Assembly (NCBI GenBank): GCA_029204225.1
Contig: CM055100.1
Span: 27,852,649 to 27,916,648 of the forward strand
Length of the DNA stretch: 64,000 nucleotides
Origin: Diphasiastrum complanatum
Taxonomy: Eukaryota > Streptophyta > Lycopodiopsida > Lycopodiales > Lycopodiaceae
Direction of reading: 5' to 3'
Below the pieces are notes generated by a model. It was not told where the DNA came from, did no database searches, and was given only the letters and a program-made list of their open reading frames with translations. How positions within the stretch are numbered: position 1 is the first letter of the stretch; each line of letters opens with the position of its first letter. A program made the position numbers and the translations under genes. Below are positions 33,931-62,166 of this stretch, in pieces.

Positions 33931-34514
33931 AACTTATCACTGAACCCTAAAAACAGCTAGACTGCTAAATATCCCAAGGGCGGTTACCCACTTTGTACAT
34001 ATACAAAGACTGGTGTAAAAAACATTCAATGCTCGTAAGATATTTTTTGAAGACACTTGTAAATATATACTACTAGCTGAATCAAGCAATGTAAGTGTTT
34101 TTAACATTATAATCAGAGTTCTTCTGTAGCCAGCATTATTACGCTTAGCAAGCTGAAGTTATCACTTTAAGCCATTGTACTCGCTGTTGATATTCATTAG
34201 GGGAGGTCCAAGCACTATAAGGGCCCTTTGTAAAGATGTTTTTTTTTACTTTTCAACTATTCGACATCCACATGTCCCAATAATATTTTTACATGTGTGC
34301 AGGACCGTAACGATGTTTGTCGGACAAAAAACATTTAGAATTTCTCGGGCATATTTCTAGCCAGTTCAAAACTCCCGTCGGGCAGAGTCTAGACATGTGA
34401 TTGGATAATATATTGTTGCCCGAAACCAAAAGACTGCCCGAGTTTAACTAACTGAAGTTTAACTAACTTGCATGGATGGTTCAACTAAATGAAGTTTAAC
34501 TGAGTTTATTTTTA

Positions 34515-35720
34515 ATGTACATTATCAATCGTTTTGTATCTTGCACTGTTATGCATGTGCAATGGCCGCTTGCAATCGAAGACCACATAGTGCGATTAAT
34601 TCGGTCACTGTCTATAATGAAAGGGATTCTGAAGGGTTATGGATACCATGCACATACAGAAAATTTCAAGGTTGTGATGCATTCCTCATCAAAAGATGCA
34701 TTCCGCAAAAGAAAGAGATCAATTATAGATTACAGAAACTTTTGGAAAGGAAGAATTTTAGAGTTCAAAGTTTCAAAGGGAGGTCAATCCATTTTAGAAG
34801 TCTTGATTCAATATGTGTATATGCACAATGAAGTTATGGTGGTGGATGTCAATCCCGTAAATCGACTCAAATGCAATTGTATGTGATGCAACTTATGCTA
34901 GTTTTTCTATGTTAATTATCCACATTCATTATTGTGATATTTGTGTTAAAATGGAATATTGTCTTTTGCAGACTTGTATCCATCAAGCATAAGCGAATGG
35001 CAACCAATACAATCACTTCCAGGCATACGTCATTCATTCTGATATCGGTTTACTCCAGTACAAGCATCTTCCTTTAAACTCACTTTTGGATTCTGGCATT
35101 TTTTTTGTACGATTCTCTTTGCATACCATGCAAAAATGATTTGAATGGCAAACTAGAAACTCTAGCTCTACCACATTTTTTGAGTGAGGAATGGGTTCCC
35201 ATCGATTCTACCATAGCAAAAAGTTTTAGATCGAAGTTTTTTATGGACATTCAAAACTGCATGAAATGTAGCACAGGTTGAAAAACCAATAGACTATACT
35301 GGTATTTACCATTTGTTTTTGTAGATTTTTTGCTAAAAGTAATGTTCGTAAAACAGCTACAATGTTCGTTGCTAAGGATTAAACTGATGAAATGATATTA
35401 GAACTCCTTGATGATCATTGGGATGTGAAAAATGATGGCAGCATTCAAAGTAGAGTTAACAAATCATCCATGATATTTCGATATCATACAGAAAAACAAA
35501 TGTTTTCTTTTATGTTTTATTATAGAAGATGAATTAGAGTTAATAATGAATGGAAGGCATTAGATCAAGACTTTACAATGAACCATCGTGAGCAAATGCA
35601 AATAGAGGTGAAGCAAAATGGGGTTGTTATTGCGACAATTGAAGTGGAGGAGGACTGGAGTCTGAAATATATATGATCGGAACTTACAATGCTCCAATTT
35701 GACATTCCTCAAAACTATGG
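34515..35720 (+). pseudogene. unrecognised multi-exon gene, decaying
   Basis: Successive coding-like pieces on the plus strand are separated by plausible introns. A first exon ends at 34878 (HTENFKVVMHSSSKDAF...NPVNRLKCN). It is followed by GTATGT and an acceptor at 34970-34971, giving YLYPSSISEWQPIQSLPGI in phase. After a TGA and a likely frameshift in a T8 run come LNGKLETLALPHFLSEEWVP and MDIQNCMK. A later piece reads DEMILELLDDHWDVKNDGS with a TAA just before it, and then a piece with TMNHREQMQIEVKQ. I do not recognise the family. Several stops show it is not functional. It is upstream of, and opposite to, the histone-protease gene. Confidence 0.4.
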
Positions 35721-36103
35721 TTTTGAGTGAATGGAAGAATGGTACGTTTTTGTATTTGAATAGTCTGTTAGGTAATTGTTATCCTGTTATTTATTAACAA
35801 TGATTTATTGATAGACTATTTGCAATGCTAATGCAGATCAGAGCAAGGCAAGAAGATCATATCCCATGCAGAGATTTAATGTCAAACATAGAAATTGTCG
35901 AAACAGAATAAAACTTTGATGGATCAGTAAATCTACAATATTGGTGAGCTTAACTTTCCTTGTTAACTTTTAGATTGTTAACTTTTGGCTCATTTTAGAT
36001 TATCCCACATTGTTTATTGAAAAATGTAATTCCATTGTTTTCATGTGCAGGTTCAAGGAAAGTGTAATGGAAAATGTACAATATACAATTACATCTTTCT
36101 AAA

Positions 36104-36163
36104 GATGGAAATAGCAACAATAGAATATCAAATGATGGAAATAGCAACAATCGAATATCAAAA
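36104..36163 (+). repeat. two 30-bp tandem units
   Basis: GATGGAAATAGCAACAATNG followed by AATATCAAAW occurs twice with a 30-base period (36104-36133, 36134-36163). The copies differ at two positions. Confidence 0.8.
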
Positions 36164-36320
36164 GACTCGTAAGGGTCATCATTTGTACACATTGAATGTA
36201 AATTTTTGAAATACATATTTCTGTATTGGCCTTTCAATAAGACCATCTATCTATTTCTCTATATAAATTTCTTTTCCATCAGCTCTTTCAAGTGCAAATT
36301 CCCAGCTTCTTGTTCCATTG

Positions 36321-37009
36321 TCACCGATGTTGCATTAGTGAGAAAATCTTAATCATCTCTTGTCGAAATTCAAATATGTCATTTTGTGTGAATTTTGGAC
36401 AGGTGAACTGCAAATCATCAACAATAAATAAGTTAGACATACACAAAAATAAAAAATGATATAAATAAAATCAGTGTACATCCAAACTCAAACTACCTGA
36501 CGTATATCGACATTTTTACCTTGGCTAATGAACCACTCCATAAAGCACTTTTAATGGCATACCAGCCACAACTGAATGAGTCAACTTGTTGAGAGGACTG
36601 AAAATCAAAATTGAGAATGTTAGTTTCACATTTTTTATATTGCAATTTGCATCATGAAAAAAGTGATTGAAAAATTGGTTACATGTGCGTCTATTATATC
36701 TATGTGCTTTGCTACACACAGGGCCTTCATTGGAAAATATATAATCATGCTTTTGTACATCTCAATGTCGACATTGAGGTGTGTTGATCTCAAAGAGTTC
36801 ATTCTCAGCACCCTTGGATTGCACAAATCGGCTTCATCCACTCTTAGTGATATAATATGTACAGACCAGTGATGACTGCAAACAACCAAATAGTCAACGA
36901 TATGTAAATGAAAAAAATACAAACATAGATAACAAAACATCATACATACAATCCAAATAAAACAATACATACTTTTGACAGTATGGTACAACAAAAATTT
37001 CTGTATCGC
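36321..37009 (-). CDS. exons 3-6: Ulp1-like cysteine protease core
   Basis: Ulp1/SENP proteases mature SUMO and remove it from targets, acting in the nucleus. The His (NHHW), Gln (QQ) and Cys (SFSCG) of the active site are visible in separate exons whose phases match (2/1, 0/0, 0/0). The catalytic Asp of the LxxDSL-type motif is replaced by Asn (RMNSL). Related cysteine proteases use Asn at this place, so activity is not excluded. ULP-type proteases are often carried by plant MULE and CACTA transposons, so the host element may be mobile. Confidence 0.75.
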
Positions 37010-38214
37010 CTGGCACGGGTCATAAACATGATGAAGCTGATTGCTCGTCCTCAAGCAAGTGACAAAAAAATTGAGTAAGAACAAAAACACCTGGAACACT
37101 CACTTTTGTACAATTGAACCCAATAATTGAGTCCAGCTTCGACAATTGGATCTGTGACATAAGTTTCTTACAGATAGCAGCATTAAAATAATTCATATAT
37201 GAGGCCGAATATATATTAAATATAAAGTGACCACCTAATTTATCTATTTTTTTAGCTATGTACTCGTCAAAATTATATATCGTTCGAAATCAAAAAATGT
37301 CAGCATGGGATCGACCAGATATTGAAAAACTAAATTTTTATATACAGCTCCTATTGATTGAGAAAGGCTTTCGAAAAAGAGAGCAACTGATTTTGTGATG
37401 TATCTGTCCTGATCCTCTATGGTGCATCTGGGCACATCAAAAGACTGGTCACTATCAGAAGAGTAATCTAGTAAAAAATTTAGACCAAGAGTGACATGAA
37501 GACCCTCTTGAACTTTCAGTGTATCAAGAATTAATTGGGTGTGGCTTATCATCTGCTAGGTCTCATCTGATAGTACTAATCTTCTTTTAGGCGGAGGCGA
37601 AGGCGGAGGTGGAGGAGAGAGGGGGAGTTTTCAGCTTTCACCCTAGACAACCTAGCTTGATCATGTTGATCATGAGTTGGCTGGTCTTCCGCTGGTTTGA
37701 TTTGGCCTTTTTTGGCCCTGGTTCCTGACTTCACTGGCCTTGACTGCTTTCTTTTCTTCTGATAAGGGGGTCTAACCCTGGGAGCAGGTCGGGGAGGTGG
37801 AGGTGCCTTGAACACCTGCTCGTAATGATTCCTTAGCCTGAACACAAGCTCCATATCTTTGGGCATGATAGTCACCCGCTTTGCATGTACAGCAGCAAGC
37901 ACAGTGCTCTCAAAAAACCTAATCTGATAATCTTCATAGGCTGTATGCAAAGCTTCTATGGCCGTCACGCACCATCTCACATCCACGGACATAGATCTCG
38001 TCACATCCCTCACTATCCTATTGAAGTGAGCTTTCGGTATCAGCAGGTTGGTGGACTTCTGTAACCTCCTGATATCTCTGAGCCATGGTCGGGGTTTTCT
38101 ATTTGTCCCCCTAACATGAAGTCTAGCAGCAGCAGGATGAAAGGATGATGTAGGTTGAGCAGCAATCGGCGGGACAGTAGATTGTGGACACGCGGTCTGT
38201 TTAGTCCTTGCCAT
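36321..38214 (-). CDS. predicted fusion: divergent histone H3 domain + Ulp1/SENP-type (C48) protease
   Basis: Six exons on the minus strand, 38214-37642, 37552-37091, 37009-36973, 36875-36683, 36597-36520 and 36407-36321, join with GT-AG introns of 81-112 bases in consistent phase. They predict 476 residues, provided one missing T is allowed for in exon 2 near 37266-37269. Exon 1 begins MARTKQTA, as in histone H3, but the H3 lysine-9 context is lost (CPQSTVPP). The fold follows at residues 42-130 (LRDIRRLQKSTNLLI, HAKRVTIMPKDMELV). A basic Pro/Lys extension (APPPPRPAPRVRPPYQKKRK) comes next, where canonical H3 has ended. Exons 3-6 carry C48 motifs: FVVPYC, NHHWSVHII (catalytic His), LRMNSL (Asn where Asp is usual), SSQQVDSFSCGWY (Gln and catalytic Cys), and a final NDIFEFRQEM typical of the Ulp1 C-terminus. 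Alternative: two neighbouring genes or pseudogenes. The intron 37641-37553 joining the halves is the key inference. Confidence 0.7.
37642..38214 (-). CDS. exon 1: divergent histone H3-like domain
   Basis: Read alone, this frame stays open to 37576 (212 residues from the MARTK start, against 135-136 for canonical H3). The core aligns to H3 without gaps, and loop 1 has no insertion. Residues SMSVDVRW and YEDY differ from H3 (KTDLRF, AEAY) and have some CenH3 flavour (RW, AEDY). Lys4 is kept. The start chosen is the MARTK methionine at 38214, because it reproduces the H3 N-terminus; the same frame extends six codons upstream to 38232. It could be a degenerate H3 variant, a CenH3-like paralogue, or a captured histone domain in a mobile element. 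Confidence 0.85.
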
Positions 38215-38386
38215 ATCTTTCCAATATCGCAAACACGCGAGTAGATCGTAGATGAAATTATCGTATACAAGTTTTTGCGTGGCTCCAATATCATATAGAG
38301 AGTTTGCAATATCGCAGGGGCGCGAGCACGGACCAAACCTCTCAAAAAGAAACCAGACCGTCGCGCGGCTCCGATATTGGGTTTGG

Positions 38387-39004
<618 letters not shown>

Positions 39005-39288
39005 GCAATATCACAACCACGCGACTCTACTGCTTTCGTTCCTATTTGCTAGCACTCCCTCGCGTGCCTGCGATATCGGATGTTCTCGTCGACTGCCCAA
39101 TATCGCTACCACGCGACGCTGCTGCTACTTTTCTATTTTTCCATCACACCCTCGCGTGCCTGTGATATTGTTACTCGTTCGTTTCCTTGATATCGCTGCC
39201 ACGCGATAGTGCCTCTCCAAATCCGAATTTTGGCCATTCCTCGCGTTCCTGCGATATCCAGTATCATGTTTTCTCTATCATATCTAGT

Positions 39289-39528
39289 ATGGAATCTGAC
39301 AAACTGCATCAGTTCCTCTCTTACGCTGGTGTTCTAGACAGGACTCAGTACTTTTCTTCTCTTTTTTGACATAAATTTGATGTTGAGAGATTTGTGCTTG
39401 ACACAAGTCTCATCTATTGGAATTATTCAATAGCATCCAAGAATTATCTCTTGTTATTGATGGCCTGAAATTTATTCATTTCCATGAATTGATAGTTGCC
39501 CAGCTTGAAGCCCAGCACAAGCATGATA
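39289..39528 (+). pseudogene. 5' exon(s) of a divergent plus-strand gene, cut by copia
   Basis: An ATG at 39289 starts MESDKLHQFLSYAGVLDRTQ, open to a TGA at 39367. After it another frame reads LELFNSIQELSLVIDGLKFI and LIVAQLEAQHKHDM up to the copia boundary at about 39528. It lies just right of the inverted-motif array and points away from the histone-protease gene, so the two may share a promoter. The rest of this gene could be the exons at 43264-44087 on the other side of the copia. Not recognised as a known family. Confidence 0.35.
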
Positions 39529-39705
39529 TGAAGTTTACCAAGCTGAATGCCACTCTGACTGTCACTATGTATAGTTGTGGGATTTTCCTGTTTCATGCCA
39601 ACTTCATCCAAGATTTGCCTCAACCATATAGCTTCATGTGCTACACGAGACATTGCCTTACACTCTGCTTCTGTGGTGGATAAAGTAACTGTACTTTGCT
39701 TTTTA

Positions 39706-39951
39706 CTAGACCAGGAAAAACAACTCTTGAGGTTGAGTATTAGTATCTTGAGGTGTATCCACGTGTCCATCACTAGAAAAGTCAATAAATGGATCATCAT
39801 CAAAAGGAATCCTCACTGTACCATCTTTCCCACTGGATGTGTCCATCTTCTCAGCATCCTCATCTTCATATATCTTAGATTCATCAAAGATAACATCGCG
39901 GTTGACATGTATTTTGTTCTCCACTGGATCAAAACATCTATAGCCCTTCAC
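39706..39951 (-). pseudogene. copia integrase C-terminus joined to RNase H
   Basis: MKGYRCFDPVENKIHVNRDV and the acidic stretch ending NTQPQE run into FFLV, and in the neighbouring frame into SCFSWSSKKQSTVTLSTTEAEC, LRQILDEVGM and HSDSQSGIQLGK (39720-39530), which is RNase H. In an intact element some 2 kb of reverse transcriptase separates these parts. Confidence 0.85.
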
Positions 39952-40414
39952 ACGATCATCATATCCTAGGAATATACACTTGATAGCTTTTTACATCTTT
40001 CTTCCTTAGGAATGTGTAAAAAGGCCTTACATCCAAAGATTCACAATTGGTTCATCTTTTTCTTCTTCTTCGTGAATGCCTCCTCAGGTGTTATCTTTGG
40101 TATGGCAATGGTAGGACTTCTATTTTGAAGATAGACTGTCGTACTGCATGCTTCTGACCAAAAATCCTTTGGTAGTTTCATCTCAGCTAGCATAGATCTG
40201 GCACTTTCCACAATCGTATGATTCTTGCGCTCAGCTATACCATTGAGTGTAGGAGGAGCTTGCTTAAATTGTCTTTTGATCCCACATTGATCACAAAGAT
40301 CATTGAAGTCGTTAGACTTATACTCACCTCCACTATCTAATCTTAGAATTTTGATCTTCCTACTTGTCTAATTTTTGACCAATGCTTTGAAGCTCTTGAA
40401 AGTGTCAAGAAGGT

Positions 40415-40505
40415 TCCGTCTATATAAGGATCACAATACTTCAATACATTCATTGATGATTACACACACATGACCATTGTCTATTTCTTGAAGAAAGAGC
40501 TCATG
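40415..40505 (+). other. micro-inversion inside the copia integrase
   Basis: Within the minus-strand integrase a stretch of about 90 bases reads in the plus direction as YFNTFIDDYTHMTIVYFLKK, the integrase catalytic-region segment (FVTFIDDxSxxTWIYFLKK). The minus-strand frame on its right ends LGKAFYF, and on its left resumes with TFKSFKALVK, the segments that normally flank it. The piece has been inverted in place. Confidence 0.75.
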
Positions 40506-40681
40506 AAATAGAAGGCTTTACCTAAGGACGTAGTCCTCATAGGCCCCCATAGATCTTTGTGGATCAAATCTAGGATGTTCTTGGCCCTTGCAACACCACC
40601 TTTATTGAACTTCTCTCAATGTTGCTTTCCATACACAAATGATTCGCACATCGACTTCAAGTGGTCTTCTATCATAGGCAA

Positions 40682-41529
40682 TCATCGCACCATTTTCAGC
40701 TTTCTCATCAAACTAAGGCTTCCTAAGTTCAAATGACCAAGCCTCTTATGCCATAGTTCAGTTTGCGATGGAATGGACGAGATAAGTCCATGTTGCCCCT
40801 TGATTGTAGCATTCAACCTGTACAATTTAGTGTTGGGCTCCCTTATACCATCCGCAATGAGTTTGAACTTTTGGTTCACATCCTTCACAAAGCAACGATC
40901 ATGGGCAAATTCTACTTTCAACTTTTGATCAGTAATGACACCAACAGAAAGTAGATTTTTCTTCAAACCTGGTATGTAAAGTACCTCCCTGATCATCCTG
41001 CTTTTGCCATCAGGTAGTTGGATTAAAACGGTGCCTATCCCCTTGATCTTGCACACATCACCATTTGCTTGTGAAACGAACGTTCCATTATCCAACACTT
41101 TCAATCCTTGTTATATGTCATATGTCTCAGTGTGGCTCCTAAGTCAATGTACCACGCTTGATCATCTTGATTAGATGACAATGTTGATATGAAGATGCTA
41201 GAGTCTTCAATCTCACCCTCATCGACAAGGTTACCTGCTTGCTTTGGTTTCCCCTTGCTTGATTCTGCCAGGAATTTCAGACATTCGCTCTTCCAATGGC
41301 CCTTTTTGCCACAATGGAAGCATTTGCCCTTCTTTTTAGTCTTGCTGGAAGATCCCTCATCCTCCTGAGTCTTGGCAAACTGTTTCTTAGACTTCTTCTT
41401 GCCCTTGTCTTTGCCTTGCTTTTGGCGTGTCGTAAGTGCTTGATCATCAGTATTGTGATGTCTAGCTTTCACCATTTCTCGTCGTTGCTCCTCCTGTGCC
41501 AGCTTCGTTTGGTGGTCTTCTCTTGTCAC
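40682..41529 (-). pseudogene. copia gag end, protease and GAG-pre-integrase
   Basis: CFHCGKKGHWKSEC zinc knuckle and DDQAWYIDLGA (active site DSGA changed to DLGA) lie at 41529-41101. The frame then shifts near 41103 and continues through IREVLYIPGLKKNLLSVGV and ELWHKRLGHLNLGSLSLMRK to 40682. The loss of the protease serine and the frameshift both abolish function. Confidence 0.85.
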
Positions 41530-42957
41530 CTGTGATGATATCCCATAGTTCCTTCTCTATCAGTATGTTCTTTATCTTGAACTTCCACACTACATAGTTG
41601 GAAATCCCATCCAATTTGCTACTTTCACTCAAAATGGACTCTCCCATGTTCGCCATCCCAAAACTGCTTAAAACTGCAACCGTAGGCTATAAACAATATG
41701 TCGAGGCCAACGGTGATGTCAAAAGTTGACAATAATGACCTGCTATTTTTTCCTTACCAGGACACCCACTGCTTTTCCGCCAAATTGGCGTTGCCTTCCG
41801 AAATGCACTTTGTCACCAACTCCCAACTACGTACCCAATGGAATGGTGAAATCACTTTTGGCGCATTCCGAACACTTTCTCCGCTGCAATCACTCTATTT
41901 TTGGTACCGTACTTGCAAGGTACAATCCAGGTGCCCTTCGTTTGGAGGTTATAGCCTTTCGTTTGGGTCAAAATGGATAAAGGACTAGAAAATAAGGGCT
42001 TTTTGAACTTTTGAACTGTTTCTTCACCTTGAAGAAACTTCACCTTTCACTTGTGAAGGGACCCAACTCCAATTTCAACTTGAAAATTTTTATTGAAGTT
42101 GAATGGTCAATTTTCCTTCAATGGCCTTCAGGTCCTTTCAAAGCCCCTTTCACCTCAATCTAACGGATTCTTCCAATCCAACGGCCCACCTAGCTTTTCA
42201 TCGATGCGAAGTCCACCGTCGATGGTTGGTCCTCTTGATCTAACGGTTATGTCTGCTTCTACACCTCAATCCACATCCTTAGACTCGCTGGACCCCTTAA
42301 TGCACTAAGAAGGGACTTTTCCACACACGAGTAGACCTGCAAGGTCTCTCCTCCTCCTCTTACAATAAGCTAGCTTCAAAGAGGGTTTCTCCCAACTATG
42401 GCCATCCCTTTTGATCGACCCAGCACATTGTACAGCCTGCAGCTGTCCACGGCCCTTTGCCTACTGATCAATCTCTCCAGGGCGCCCTCCTACACGTTTT
42501 ATAGCTCTAAAAATGGACTTCTATGAAGAGAAAAACACAATTTCACAGTGCAAAACCCTTGGCCAGGATTCTTGTACTCTTCTTCACACCTAGCAGCCTT
42601 TATAGAGTTCTTTAACAGGCAAATTTTCTTGCTTTGAGGTCGCCCTACTGCAAGGAATCCACTACTTCAAACCGTTTGTCAATCGGTATCCGATTGAATG
42701 CACACCAATCGCAAACACCAAGCAGCCTCCCTACGGAATTTCAGAATTCTGTTTGTCTTGAGTTCTGATTCAGCCGACAACTCCTGTCTGTGAATCCTCT
42801 TACAATCTCAAACTTAGCAGGCTTCTGTGTGCTAGAATCTGTGCACCAGTGCCTCACTTTCTGTCTTCAACCCGCCGTAAACTTCGAACTCTCAGAAGAC
42901 TGCTCTTTTCCCGAAGCTCTCTTCAATGGTGACACTGTACTTTGTACACTCCTTGAA

Positions 42958-42971
42958 CCGCTCTAATACCA
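42958..42971 (-). other. primer-binding site variant for tRNA-iMet
   Basis: The minus strand reads TGGTATTAGAGCGG, one base from the standard TGGTATCAGAGC, directly inside the LTR end. Confidence 0.8.
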
Positions 42972-43248
42972 ACTTAGAATTTTCTTCTGACAGGGACACA
43001 GATCATGCTACTCAGTAACACAGATAGAAAACACTCTCCACAACAAGCTCACGTAGCAAAACTGTATTTCTCAAAATGAAAATACATTGTACATATAGTT
43101 CTTCACTCAGACAACCCATGCATGGCCCAGGTTGCCGTTGACGGGATGCGTGTCTCCTCGACTCGCCTCGTGGCGAGGCCATCTGATCCTTATCCACTGA
43201 TAGGATCCACAGTACAGTAACACAATGATTCTACTTTAATTCTAACTA
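42972..43248 (-). repeat. 5' LTR of the minus-strand copia copy
   Basis: A short LTR of about 277 bases. Its ends form a short inverted repeat: GTTAGAATT at the outer end and AATTCTAAG at the inner end next to the primer site. It does not have the usual TG...CA. The outer boundary is where similarity to the copy at 28042 starts. Confidence 0.65.
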
Positions 43249-43263
43249 TCCTATCTGTACTAG

Positions 43264-44087
43264 CCAATGCATTGTCAGAATTTTCGGATATAATAGACTT
43301 CAATCATGATGATTTAATTGAAGGGATTGACTATAAAGATGAAGGTGGTTGGAAGTCTGGAGAGCAGGCCTTACAAATTACAAGGCAACAATGTCTAGCC
43401 TATGGAGCAAATGCTCCTAGTGAGGAGGAGTTCATTGAGTTTCAAAAAAGACATCCTCCTCCAGAGCAATACGTTTTTTCTGAGGTAGTGAGAAGTATTC
43501 TTGTTGGGCATGACTTGCGTGGAAAAGGATTGTTGGAGTATGACCAGCATGACATGGTAATTTTCATTTCTTCTATCATAATCATATTTAGCATTGTATT
43601 CAACCAAGACTCCTGAAAATTTAATTGATTACAAATTTTTGTACTTCTATTGCAGGACACAATTGAAGTTGATGATTTTGCTACACGAAGAGGAGGTGCC
43701 CGAGGTGCTGTTGGCCAAAAGGATTCAACATTATGCCATTACCTTAAATACTTTGTACAAAATGAGATTTGTATTCAACATGATAACTGTTATTCACAAG
43801 CAGTAACTATAGTAATGGCAATAAAGGCATTGTCGTATTTTTGTGATGGACATAGATATCCTAACAGTACATACAAAATCATTTTTGTCAAGAGGGATAT
43901 AGCTATAAAAATATTGGGTTATGTTTCTGAAAATGTATCCAAAAGATCATCTGCTTTAGCAATGTACGCAAGTTACATAGAGTTGAGCAAAAGAAGATCG
44001 ATTGAGCATCTGGATCCATATGAGAGGAGACAATTTCTTCATGACCATACTGCTCAGCTAACCTTTGATACCGATGAGAAGATGTAA
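43264..44087 (+). CDS. unrecognised protein, two 3' exons (upstream part cut by copia)
   Basis: Exon 43264-43556 (acceptor CTGTACTAG, donor ATG/GTAATT) and exon 43656-44087 (acceptor TATTGCAG, stop TAA 44085) join in phase 0 and are open, giving about 240 residues. Words include GGWKSGEQALQITRQQCLAY, SEEEFIEFQKRHPPPEQYVF and STLCHYLKYFVQNEICIQHD. I do not recognise the family. The first exon starts 15 bases right of the outer LTR end of the minus-strand copia, so the copia probably sits in an intron or cut the gene. The upstream part may be the pieces at 39289-39528. Its open state contrasts with the decayed copia and suggests recent or ongoing constraint. Confidence 0.55.
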
Positions 44088-45707
44088 TGTTTTAATTGTT
44101 TTTCTATTACAACGATGAAGTTGAATTGTTTTTCCTTAGAAGTTGGAATGCCTTTTTGAATGAAATGAGATTTGTTGAATATTTGGTTTGATATCTAAAC
44201 TGTGCTCTTTTGTAGAACCATTGAAAATAATTGATATAAATTGCATATCTTTGAATTATATCCTCCATGGTTGGTTGCTCGATGAAAAGCTCCTCTTGCT
44301 TGCCAATGTGATTTCTTCATACCTTGAGAAGACCATCTGGACAAATTCTCTTATTCGGCCTATCTCGAACAATCGACTGCAATTTAATTGTCAACGTATC
44401 AACAAGTACACACGTCACTACCGGACAAAATCAAATATTATCTGACGGCGATTGCCAACAGCATGTAGTGCCTTAACCCATTTGTAAAGAACGGATTAAC
44501 CATTCTTTTAATTAGTTAGCCATGTGTATATAACTAGCAACTTATCAGTTGCTCCATTAGCTGAATTTACTATCTGCTGGAGAGCGCAATTGTCTTGTTC
44601 TTTCTCTTTGTTACTACAGCATATTGTCTCAAAAAGAACGCCTCTCTATCTGCATTCAGACTGTATTTCTACACGACTAATCTGTCAATGTTCCAACAAT
44701 TTAAGTTGTGTATGTTGAATGCTTATTCGTTTTATTGTCAAATAGATTCATGCTCGCAGATAAAATTATTCGTAGATTAAACTATTTCATGTGACTGATA
44801 GCACTGCTCAATCTGTCGTTCTAAGTAAATGTACCCAAATCGCTTCCGCAAAGCTAAATCTGATAAACAAGATAATTTGTGCATGGCTATGGAATCAACT
44901 GTTTAGATCCAGCGACTTTGAAGTTGTGATCAAGTAAGACAGATCCTAATCTGTCTGAATCTGATAGACGTAGTTGCATGTACTGAGGATTCCCCGCTTG
45001 CTTCACTCTGTCGTGACGGGAACAACACCGAATCCCAACAACTTCAACTTCAGGTCATCTCCAACATGTCGCATTTTTAAAAAATGCAAAAAAAGAGAGA
45101 ACATAGGCGAAATATATATACATATATATTCTAAGTCATTTTGAACGAAGTGTCACATTTTTCATAATGTGTGTGTGAAAAAGCCGAAGGTCCATGAGAA
45201 TATGTTGTAAGTCATATTTTGGCCTTGTGTCAGTTTTTTTTTTTTTTTTGGAAATGCAACAAATGTGAATTGTGCGAAACTTAGTTCAAAAATGCAGCAG
45301 TCCGAAAAATGCAAGGAACAAAAAATACGAAACCTGTGAAATATAGAAACTTAAGGTTTTTTCATCTCCATTTGAATCTGTCCAAACATCCATCCATCCG
45401 TAATTGTGCAATTGTTGTCTAGTGTCATCAGCCATCCCTCTCAGTAATTGTCCAATTGTTGTCTAGTGACATCAACCATATGCTCTTACTTTCATCATTC
45501 TACTTGAACATACATCCATTCACAATACCAACCTCCAACCATCATCACCAACCAATTCTTCCAAAATCCACTCAGATTCACTGTCACCGTAAGCCTCCGC
45601 TCCCTATTGCATAGTGAATGATATTGAGATCTTATAGAAGATTATTAACAAAGAATCTAGAGCTACGTCAAGTAACAATGAAAGAGATTTGGGTAAATTA
45701 AATATTA
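44088..45707. other. unassigned sequence with AT-rich stretch
   Basis: Short open frames only (for example 85 codons at 44188). At 45060-45310 words resembling GCATTTTT and AAAAATGC recur, similar to the modules at 33.5-33.9 kb. Confidence 0.35.
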
Positions 45708-60828: not shown

Positions 60829-62166
60829 TCACAGAAGGTTGCTGGTAGTCTTTCCAGAAGAAACTACCAGAACCTTTCCTGAAGGCCGCCTTTTCAGGCG
60901 TTGTTGCATCAATCCCTTCTGTATGTGGTTTTTGATTGCTTTTTCCTGTAAAAGGAACATATGAGTCTCAAGTCTCGAAAGAAATTTAAATTACATAAAG
61001 GCCACGTTAAAATAAAAAAAGATGACAAGCTATTAGGTAAAATAGGAAATATTCCATGCAAGCCGAGCATTGGAGGATCCAAACCTCGAAGATTTTTATC
61101 AAATTATTTTGGCAAACAATCCAAGGTTCAATACACGGTTTGGAAAGAAATTATTGCAGCAACTCAAGATTTCGAAAAAGAAGGTTCTACTCGTATACAC
61201 AAAGTAGAAGTTTGGAAAAAGTTGGACAACATGGTGAAATACTTGAAAAAAGATAAATTTTCAAATACTAATGTACAAATGATACAGAAAACAACCAGTG
61301 AATTTGTGGATGCAGTTCAAAGTGCATGGGGTGTTGATCATATAACACATTATATGATAAGATTTTGATTTTACACTGCGATAGACAAATATGTGCAATT
61401 AAATTAGATACTTTTGGTACTGATTTAGATTATGCACTGCGATAGACAAATATGTGCAATTAAATACATCATTCGACATTCTTTGCAAGAAATAGTGGAA
61501 GTCTTAGCATATGGTCATCGCAAGAAATGAAAAAATCTCATTGGCAAGCAAGAGCGGCATTTCATAAAAGTACGCTCAATGGTTTTCAGGGTGGGAACAC
61601 AAGCTTACCATAACGTGGCAACCTTCTTCAAATTTTTCAAGGAAGCCACTGACCCAACGATCTGCATTCTCTACCCACTCACTGTGAAGGATGCCTGCTG
61701 TTTTGGCTACTGTGTTGAGCTGCAAAACATAACATACTAGTATAACTACAAGTCATAGGAACTGAGAAAGCAGATTTGTACTCCAAGTACAGATTCTCTC
61801 CCCCCTCTATTCTCCAAAAGACAAAAAGCCCTGAGGGTGTTTCAGTCAAATAGATTTGACATGTATGATTTAGTATCATGCATTTTGAGAATGGGAGAAA
61901 AATTTGAGAGATGCGAAAAACTTCCCAGACTGGTTGCTGGCGCACTTACCATATTTCCATATTCCCAACAATTTAACTCCTTCAATATGCTTTTAATTGC
62001 TTCTTTGAAAAGTTCAGTGTGGTTACCTCATATACTAACAAAGCTCTAACACAAATGAATTTTAACTATTCAAGATAGCATGTGCTGTCTGACCTACCCG
62101 CTCTTGCTGTTCCTTCACTTTTTGCCGCAGCTTCCGCATTCCCATGTTCACCTGTAATTGTTTTTC
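60829..62166 (-). CDS. unrecognised gene, three C-terminal exons
   Basis: Minus-strand exons 62166-62098, 61719-61609 and 60945-60829 are bounded by AG acceptors and GT donors (GTAGGT, GTAAGC) and all join in phase 0. They encode 98 residues ending in [23 protein letters not shown], then [20 protein letters not shown] and [11 protein letters not shown], then [20 protein letters not shown] and [10 protein letters not shown]. The first part is a likely coiled coil. No family comes to mind. The intron between the last two exons contains a transposon remnant (60961-61580), on the opposite strand. Upstream exons are probably beyond 62.2 kb; one candidate is at 62780-62883. An alternative third-exon frame ([20 protein letters not shown]) ending at the GTAAGT at 60825 is possible. 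Confidence 0.5.
60961..61580 (+). pseudogene. DNA-transposon-like C-terminal protein fragment in an intron
   Basis: An open frame of 135 codons ([40 protein letters not shown]) is followed after a break by [20 protein letters not shown] in another frame. The two pieces recall the conserved THYMHxxxxH and GxxGxWSxQAMEKSHxAAR segments of a transposable-element protein family seen in plant and animal genomes. I know it from pattern memory and cannot name it with certainty. The short duplicated segment TACACTGCGATAGACAAATATGTGCAATTAAAT occurs at about 61372 and 61434. Confidence 0.4.

Follow-up and report, generated by a model that had tools for sequence, protein, structure and literature searches.

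The closest described systems include a hAT transposon of the fungus Pyrenophora tritici-repentis, which has terminal inverted repeats and carries, besides a transposase and another frame, a diverged H3-like gene (H3L) with a PF00125 domain; in the accessible part of that paper H3L is described as neither H3 nor CENH3, and 26 copies are given for the reference genome (PMC3538342). In plants, the Kaonashi (KIU) genes encode a Ulp1 domain within Mutator-like/VANDAL elements, and KIU-carrying VANDALs have been linked to anti-silencing, with the role of the Ulp1 domain there called unknown in the available text of a 2026 review (PMC13317346). According to the same text, some VANC genes also contain a Ulp1 domain. 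As far as the accessible portions of these papers go, VANC proteins of VANDAL elements remove silent marks, which sets a precedent for anti-silencing (PMC10398659), and bind noncoding DNA of their own element (PMC5735166), and SUMO proteases act on the loading factors of CENP-A/CENH3 (PMC6726658; PMC12903445).

We examined a stretch of 64,000 nucleotides from the Diphasiastrum complanatum genome (hereafter the window; contig CM055100.1, positions 27,852,649 to 27,916,648). A preliminary description had proposed that a single gene of six minus-strand exons at 38214-36321 of this window joins a histone H3 domain to a Ulp1/C48 SUMO-type protease, and that no family with this architecture had been described. 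The latter statement holds for the fusion itself, which was not found in the available text of the literature searched, but needs qualifying for its parts, as a free-standing H3-like gene has been published from a fungal hAT element (PMC3538342, consulted in part) and Ulp1 domains are well known from plant transposons (PMC13317346, likewise). The multi-copy transposon nature of the locus had gone unmentioned. We find that the window locus is a broken copy of a histone-protease gene from a dispersed transposon lineage that is abundant in the genome.

The window copy and its relatives

The H3-like open frame extends from ATG to stop at 37576..38214 on the minus strand (as do all parts of the gene given below) and starts MARTKQTACPQS, beginning MARTKQTA; in this copy the linker that truly continues it lies in a different frame. 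Residues 1-129 match H3 chains in the PDB (phmmer E 8.3e-24), and the H3 histone fold, residues 38-128 at 37831..38103, matches PF00125 with E 7.7e-25, which bears out the proposed H3-like N-terminus and fold. A single-sequence structure model of this frame was too poor for fold search (mean pLDDT 56.1), and its helices, at 43-53, 61-73, 79-110 and 118-135, occupy the positions expected of H3.

Downstream on the same strand lie the linker and the N-terminal part of the Ulp1 region, with a frame change (37091..37552), and the coding end of the first long exon, DTEIFVVPYCQ (36973..37009). Three GT-AG introns follow, of 97 bases (36876..36972), 85 bases (36598..36682) and 112 bases (36408..36519), each at a place where the uninterrupted relative described below, L045, also has an intron. 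Between them are a Ulp1 exon with HHW and MNSL, the latter with Asn at the place of the catalytic Asp (36683..36875), and a Ulp1 exon with QQVDSFSCGW, in which the Cys is present and a Gln stands six residues ahead of it (36520..36597); the last exon runs to TGA at 36321..36407. The Ulp1 core was recognisable by its HHW and QQVDSFSCGW words, but the protease pieces, joined as in the preliminary model with an X at the frame change, gave E 0.0012 and 19.2 bits against PF02902, slightly below the cut-off of 20.7.

The six-exon layout, with GT-AG introns of 81-112 bases, is possible, and its last three introns fit; the first two are not introns. Among the five proposed introns, AT content is 48% at 37641-37553, 59% at 37090-37010 and 73-75% in the remaining three. 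The stretch at 37553..37641 is decayed coding linker, proline-rich and containing KRRLVLSDET: in another frame it gives PPPPPSPPPKRRLVLSDET and then a stop. Of the 15 relatives that we fetched from the window's subfamily, which we call A (L009-L023), 13 read this stretch in the frame of H3, whereas two of them and the window copy do not. Similarly, 37010..37090 is coding sequence, interrupted by a stop in the window copy; a protein alignment over this stretch was obtained for 10 of the same 15 relatives, nine of which are stop-free there. As both stretches read as protein in relatives, the window copy is broken by stops and shifts of frame, the idea that it is a working gene is not supported, and the agreement of exon phases that had been offered as evidence of splicing fits decayed coding sequence instead.

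The search for relatives covered the window's own genome (1.745 Gb, 5176 contigs), in which the window's H3 part gave 150 scored matches among 6837 first-look candidates. We fetched 20 copies, chosen for identity, long open frames and spread, 15 of them belonging to subfamily A. A recognisable Ulp1 piece is present in 18 of the 20 (L009 and L013 are without one), and in the 13 A copies that have it the first Ulp1 piece is in frame with H3 in eight and out of frame in five. Pieces of one relative, L024, scored 16.9 bits against PF02902, below the cut-off of 20.7.

The fusion is real because uninterrupted relatives exist elsewhere in the same genome. In L045 (C8:18046200-18050200), of subfamily D, H3 fold, linker and Ulp1 core form an uninterrupted four-exon gene: the first open frame, of 340 aa, opens with the H3 part, spans fold and linker and reaches into the Ulp1 region, and three more exons follow, separated by GT-AG introns, with no frame change and no stop. 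The joined pieces clear both Pfam cut-offs, with 87 bits for PF00125 (E 7.5e-25; cut-off 26.4) and 38.2 bits for PF02902 (E 1.8e-9; cut-off 20.7). A further phmmer match to H3 chains in the lineage reached E 1.6e-25 (8.3e-24 for the window), and the PDB sequence nearest to the element's Ulp1 domain is Ulp1 itself (1euv, E 0.0028), aligned around the His and the Cys. With the first exon of L045 as query we obtained 119 scored matches (78-100% identity) among 9624 first-look candidates, and these D copies are spread over C1 to C24. By a count made by eye, in which some rows are near-identical copies on small contigs, the first exon is stop-free over 305-337 aa in 26 of the 119, L045 included, and has at least one stop in the other 93. 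In subfamily A, L014 has a single frame of 527 aa that reads through the first true intron, from H3 and linker into the N part of Ulp1 and on to HHWS and MNSL.

The preliminary description had also named homologues in which the two parts are never adjacent as evidence against a single gene. Within the D. complanatum genome we found the reverse: among 101 of the 150 listed H3 matches, compared with 104 of the 150 listed protease-exon matches (the lower rows being left out), the exon with His and Asn lies 893-1355 bases downstream of H3 on the same strand in 54, compared with none in 200 random shifts. A protease match on the opposite strand within 3 kb was seen for two of the 101. The stop at 37576 and the frame change in the window would agree with separate H3 and protease genes that lie side by side and were joined in error; this reading is nearly refuted, as H3 continues in a single frame into the Ulp1 region in L045, L014 and the 26 stop-free D copies, and introns are at the same places in L045 and the window. 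The claim of one gene joining H3 to a Ulp1-type protease is therefore upheld, most strongly outside the window. Judged from its sequence, the uninterrupted gene is very probably a transposon gene whose product is an H3-like histone bearing a Ulp1-type protease domain at its C-terminus. No relatives of the L045 first exon were found in collections of prokaryote contigs, viral contigs and plasmids, an absence which, given what these collections hold, says little about plants.

The carrier element

Common to the copies are the 5' end CATTAGGGG and the 3' end CCCCTAATG, which are inverted repeats of each other; AAGGGCCCT lies further inward from the ends. All 40 scored matches to the 5' end start within the first three query bases, and all 40 scored matches to the 3' end finish within the last three. 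Four copies have the H3 gene enclosed by both ends, with 6.8 to 15.7 kb from one end to the other. These come from a set of 73 of the 150 H3 matches in which the last picks were made partly for nearness to an end, so that the 27 rows of that set do not give a rate. A helitron reading of the ends was rejected because both ends are inverted repeats. No target-site duplication was seen by eye in any of the four elements with both ends, whose ends may be worn or mispaired. Mutator-like elements make a long target-site duplication, of about 9 bases.

The element's genes include the H3-Ulp1 gene, an upstream putative transposase gene, a gene B divergent from the H3-Ulp1 gene and a gene D convergent with it. 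The genes other than H3-Ulp1 gave no Pfam match above cut-off in the pieces tested. For the conserved upstream gene, two pieces (from L027 and L012) gave no Pfam match at E 5, neither to Mutator nor to hAT, and no PDB relative better than E 0.21; that it encodes a transposase is our impression only. Its conserved protein, with NVSHGANxKHPCLYC and HICTLHxEVRIIEKL, was seen at 512-1518 of L012 and 3-785 of L027 (both oriented), and possibly represents an unnamed transposase group.

In the window, the whole stretch homologous to the element covers 34195..44339 (minus strand). It ends in the 3' terminus CCCCTAATG at 34195..34203 (minus), and the 5' terminus was not seen within the window. Part of gene D, with stops, lies at 35389..35724 on the plus strand (tblastn 56% to L026, E 1e-40). 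The first part of gene B is at 39289..39544 (plus; tblastn, with a blastn edge at 39544) and its remainder at 43248..44084 (plus; tblastn 92-94%, E 5e-88 and 5e-46). The gap in element homology between them, 39545..43247, holds retrotransposon frames that we take to be copia-like from their motifs, and constitutes an insertion into gene B. Between gene B and the H3-Ulp1 gene, which diverge, a long (TC)n run at about 38390-38543 immediately precedes the H3 start. Elsewhere in the window, 60982-61365 (plus) is a piece of the putative transposase gene of another subfamily, with 62% identity to L027.

Local clusters of a diverged 3' portion of the element, protease exons included, are found at C21:36.45-37.16 Mb, C22:32.0-32.45 Mb and C6:57.0-57.24 Mb (L052, L053). 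H3 was absent from the cluster stretches fetched, at the two places examined, and two cluster stretches that were compared are 98% identical.

A further repeated H3-like gene, family E (L038-L044 and L054-L056, on C10, C17, C156, C8, C4157 and C12), codes for a protein that starts like H3, continues through a long disordered region with polyproline and has its H3 fold at the C-terminal end. Of three copies, two give a protein starting MARTKQTARDPR; the other starts MAWTKQTARDPR, and in it a single frame of 440 aa leads from this start through the long disordered stretch to the fold. Neighbouring frames match the putative transposase (E 2.9e-26), gene B (6.2e-6) and gene D (2.6e-9), and no Ulp1 match was found at E 0.1 in the family E stretches fetched. 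Family E thus keeps the histone without the protease, so that the two are separable.

Constraint, catalytic residues and relationships

We calculated pN/pS over exon 1 in seven D copies (L045 and six others, picked for absence of stops): the fold gave 0.215, the Ulp1 part 0.385 and the linker 0.673. In a second set, in which A was represented by ten of the 15 fetched A copies (the window counted among the ten), fold pN/pS was 0.17 within D, 0.29 within A, 0.30 between A and B, and 0.31 both between A and C and between B and C. Weaker values were found within B and within C (0.41 each), between A, B or C and D (0.44-0.57) and against host H3 (0.37-0.58); between subfamilies, pS is near saturation in this set. 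These substitution patterns demonstrate purifying selection on the H3 fold.

Over its whole length the tail has a pN/pS of 0.97 in subfamily A and of 0.48 in subfamily D. At the N-terminus, ARTK is found in 12 of 13 A copies, both B copies, one of two C copies and two of three E copies, and in none of seven D copies; the exact ARTKQTAR is kept in 3/13 A, 1/2 B, 0/2 C, 2/3 E and 0/7 D. A conserved H3 tail with modifiable lysines was accordingly not found: beyond loosely kept first residues in A, B, C and E, the tail diverges.

In the protease, His, Gln and Cys are kept in subfamilies A, B, C and D, and all four have Asn at the place of the catalytic Asp (RMNSL, KMNSL, KMNSI and KMNSA), as read by eye from one copy each in B and D. 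The full catalytic set of Ulp1/C48, His-Asp-Cys with Gln, is therefore not found, and with Asn for the usual Asp throughout, the domain is a putative SUMO protease only. A His-Asn-Cys protease occurs in asfarviruses.

In kind, we regard the gene as a host gene captured by a transposon, in a fused architecture not found described in the literature searched. Host H3 and Ulp1 sequences might have been copied along as passengers without function, as gene capture is common in plant transposons (PMC13317346, available in part) and drift was suggested by the fungal authors for their H3-like copies (PMC3538342, likewise). Most scored copies are indeed broken, as the 93 of 119 D copies with at least one first-exon stop indicate, and the A tail lacks constraint. 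We nevertheless consider a functionless passenger improbable. Fold pN/pS of 0.17-0.31 in five comparisons, and the difference between Ulp1 part and linker in D, argue against it, as do the presence of the same fusion in four subfamilies whose folds are mutually only 38-70% identical and the retention of His, Gln, Asn and Cys in each of them (from single copies in B and D).

Identity of the window fold is 47% with H3 and 44-46% with plant CENH3 sequences. In a tree of 13 rows, A-D group together by their H3 parts with moderate support (90/85), separately from the two rows of plant CENH3; this tree does not decide between an H3 and a CENH3 origin. The host genome has 13 full-length H3 genes on C11, C5 and C23 (nine of them on C11), which are 97-99% canonical, and host H3 has the IRKYQKST form seen in plants.

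These relationships bear on a second alternative, in which a CENH3-like histone module brings the element or its protease to centromeric chromatin. The fold contains CENH3-like words (LLIP, VT, RW), loop 1 is one residue longer in D when set against CENH3, and alphaKNL2 and CENH3 are under SUMO control in Arabidopsis (PMC12903445, consulted in part). Against such targeting stand the slightly higher identity of the window fold to H3, the separate clade of A-D and the occurrence of copies on C1 to C24, and we judge it unlikely.

The histone fold might instead work inside a transposition complex, binding DNA or a partner, while the protease matures or regulates the transposase. The H3-Ulp1 gene stays with the element's other genes, and the aligned A-D rows retain the residues that correspond to H3 His113 and Asp123, which take part in the H3-H3' contact. 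This reading leaves the H3-type first residues of A, B, C and E unexplained; its probability appears very low.

Proposed function and comparison with known systems

The explanation that we favour, and consider fairly probable as a whole, is that the locus is a broken copy of a transposon's histone-protease gene, whose uninterrupted product would act as a histone-tethered deSUMOylase that opens silenced chromatin. The histone part would put the protein into chromatin through pairing with H4; alternatively, proteins that read or write H3-tail marks would be offered the H3-type N-terminus (ARTK...). The protease domain would then strip SUMO from chromatin or silencing proteins at the element, and removal of SUMO would allow the element to be expressed and hence to move. 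The fusion may in this way help the element to escape silencing.

Taken by itself, the step from sequence to a histone-tethered deSUMOylase working against silencing is tentative, and we hold it to be possible but somewhat doubtful. Several results count against it: the Asn at the Asp place, the unconstrained A tail, the loss of ARTK in D and the loosely kept N-terminus elsewhere, and the existence of family E without the protease. Furthermore, the pieces of both the window copy and L024 fall below the PF02902 cut-off, and constraint on the fold is weaker within B and C (0.41) and in comparisons with D or host H3 (0.37-0.58). A broader proposal is more doubtful still, namely that a transposon lineage with its own histone, entering nucleosomes or H3 pathways and accompanied in four subfamilies by a His-Asn-Cys SUMO protease, enables the element to write its own chromatin state.

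The precise function of the Ulp1 domains known from several plant transposons is unknown according to the accessible text of the 2026 review (PMC13317346). Fusion of such a domain to a histone is a direct hint that the protease acts in chromatin, and the H3-Ulp1 fusion offers a protein on which the function of transposon Ulp1 domains can be tested. If a selfish element does maintain a selected histone of its own, it would be a natural probe of H3, in which the fold is kept and most of the tail is free to change.

The fungal element (PMC3538342) and the present one have in common an H3-like gene on a DNA transposon with inverted ends, so far as the available text allows comparison. H3L is free-standing and 'ulp1' occurs nowhere in the main text of that paper, whereas here H3 is fused to a Ulp1-type domain; the fungal carrier has a hAT transposase, whereas here the pieces tested gave no hAT match; and 26 copies of H3L compare with 150 and 119 scored matches here, from 6837 and 9624 first-look candidates. 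With its His, Gln and Cys places and its best PDB match, Ulp1 1euv, the protease resembles the yeast Ulp1/SENP SUMO proteases (C48), from which the Asn at the catalytic Asp place sets it apart. Set beside the Kaonashi-carrying Mutator-like elements, the present element has short inverted ends, with no target duplication seen in the four copies examined and no Mutator match in the pieces tested. It resembles Kaonashi in being a plant DNA transposon that carries a Ulp1-domain gene and differs from it in the histone part: in the available text of PMC13317346, 'histone' does not occur, whereas 'ulp' begins a word 11 times. No histone part was found described in the accessible VANC literature. The likeness to VANC lies in the function proposed here, that of a transposon-coded protein which would clear silent marks from its own copies.
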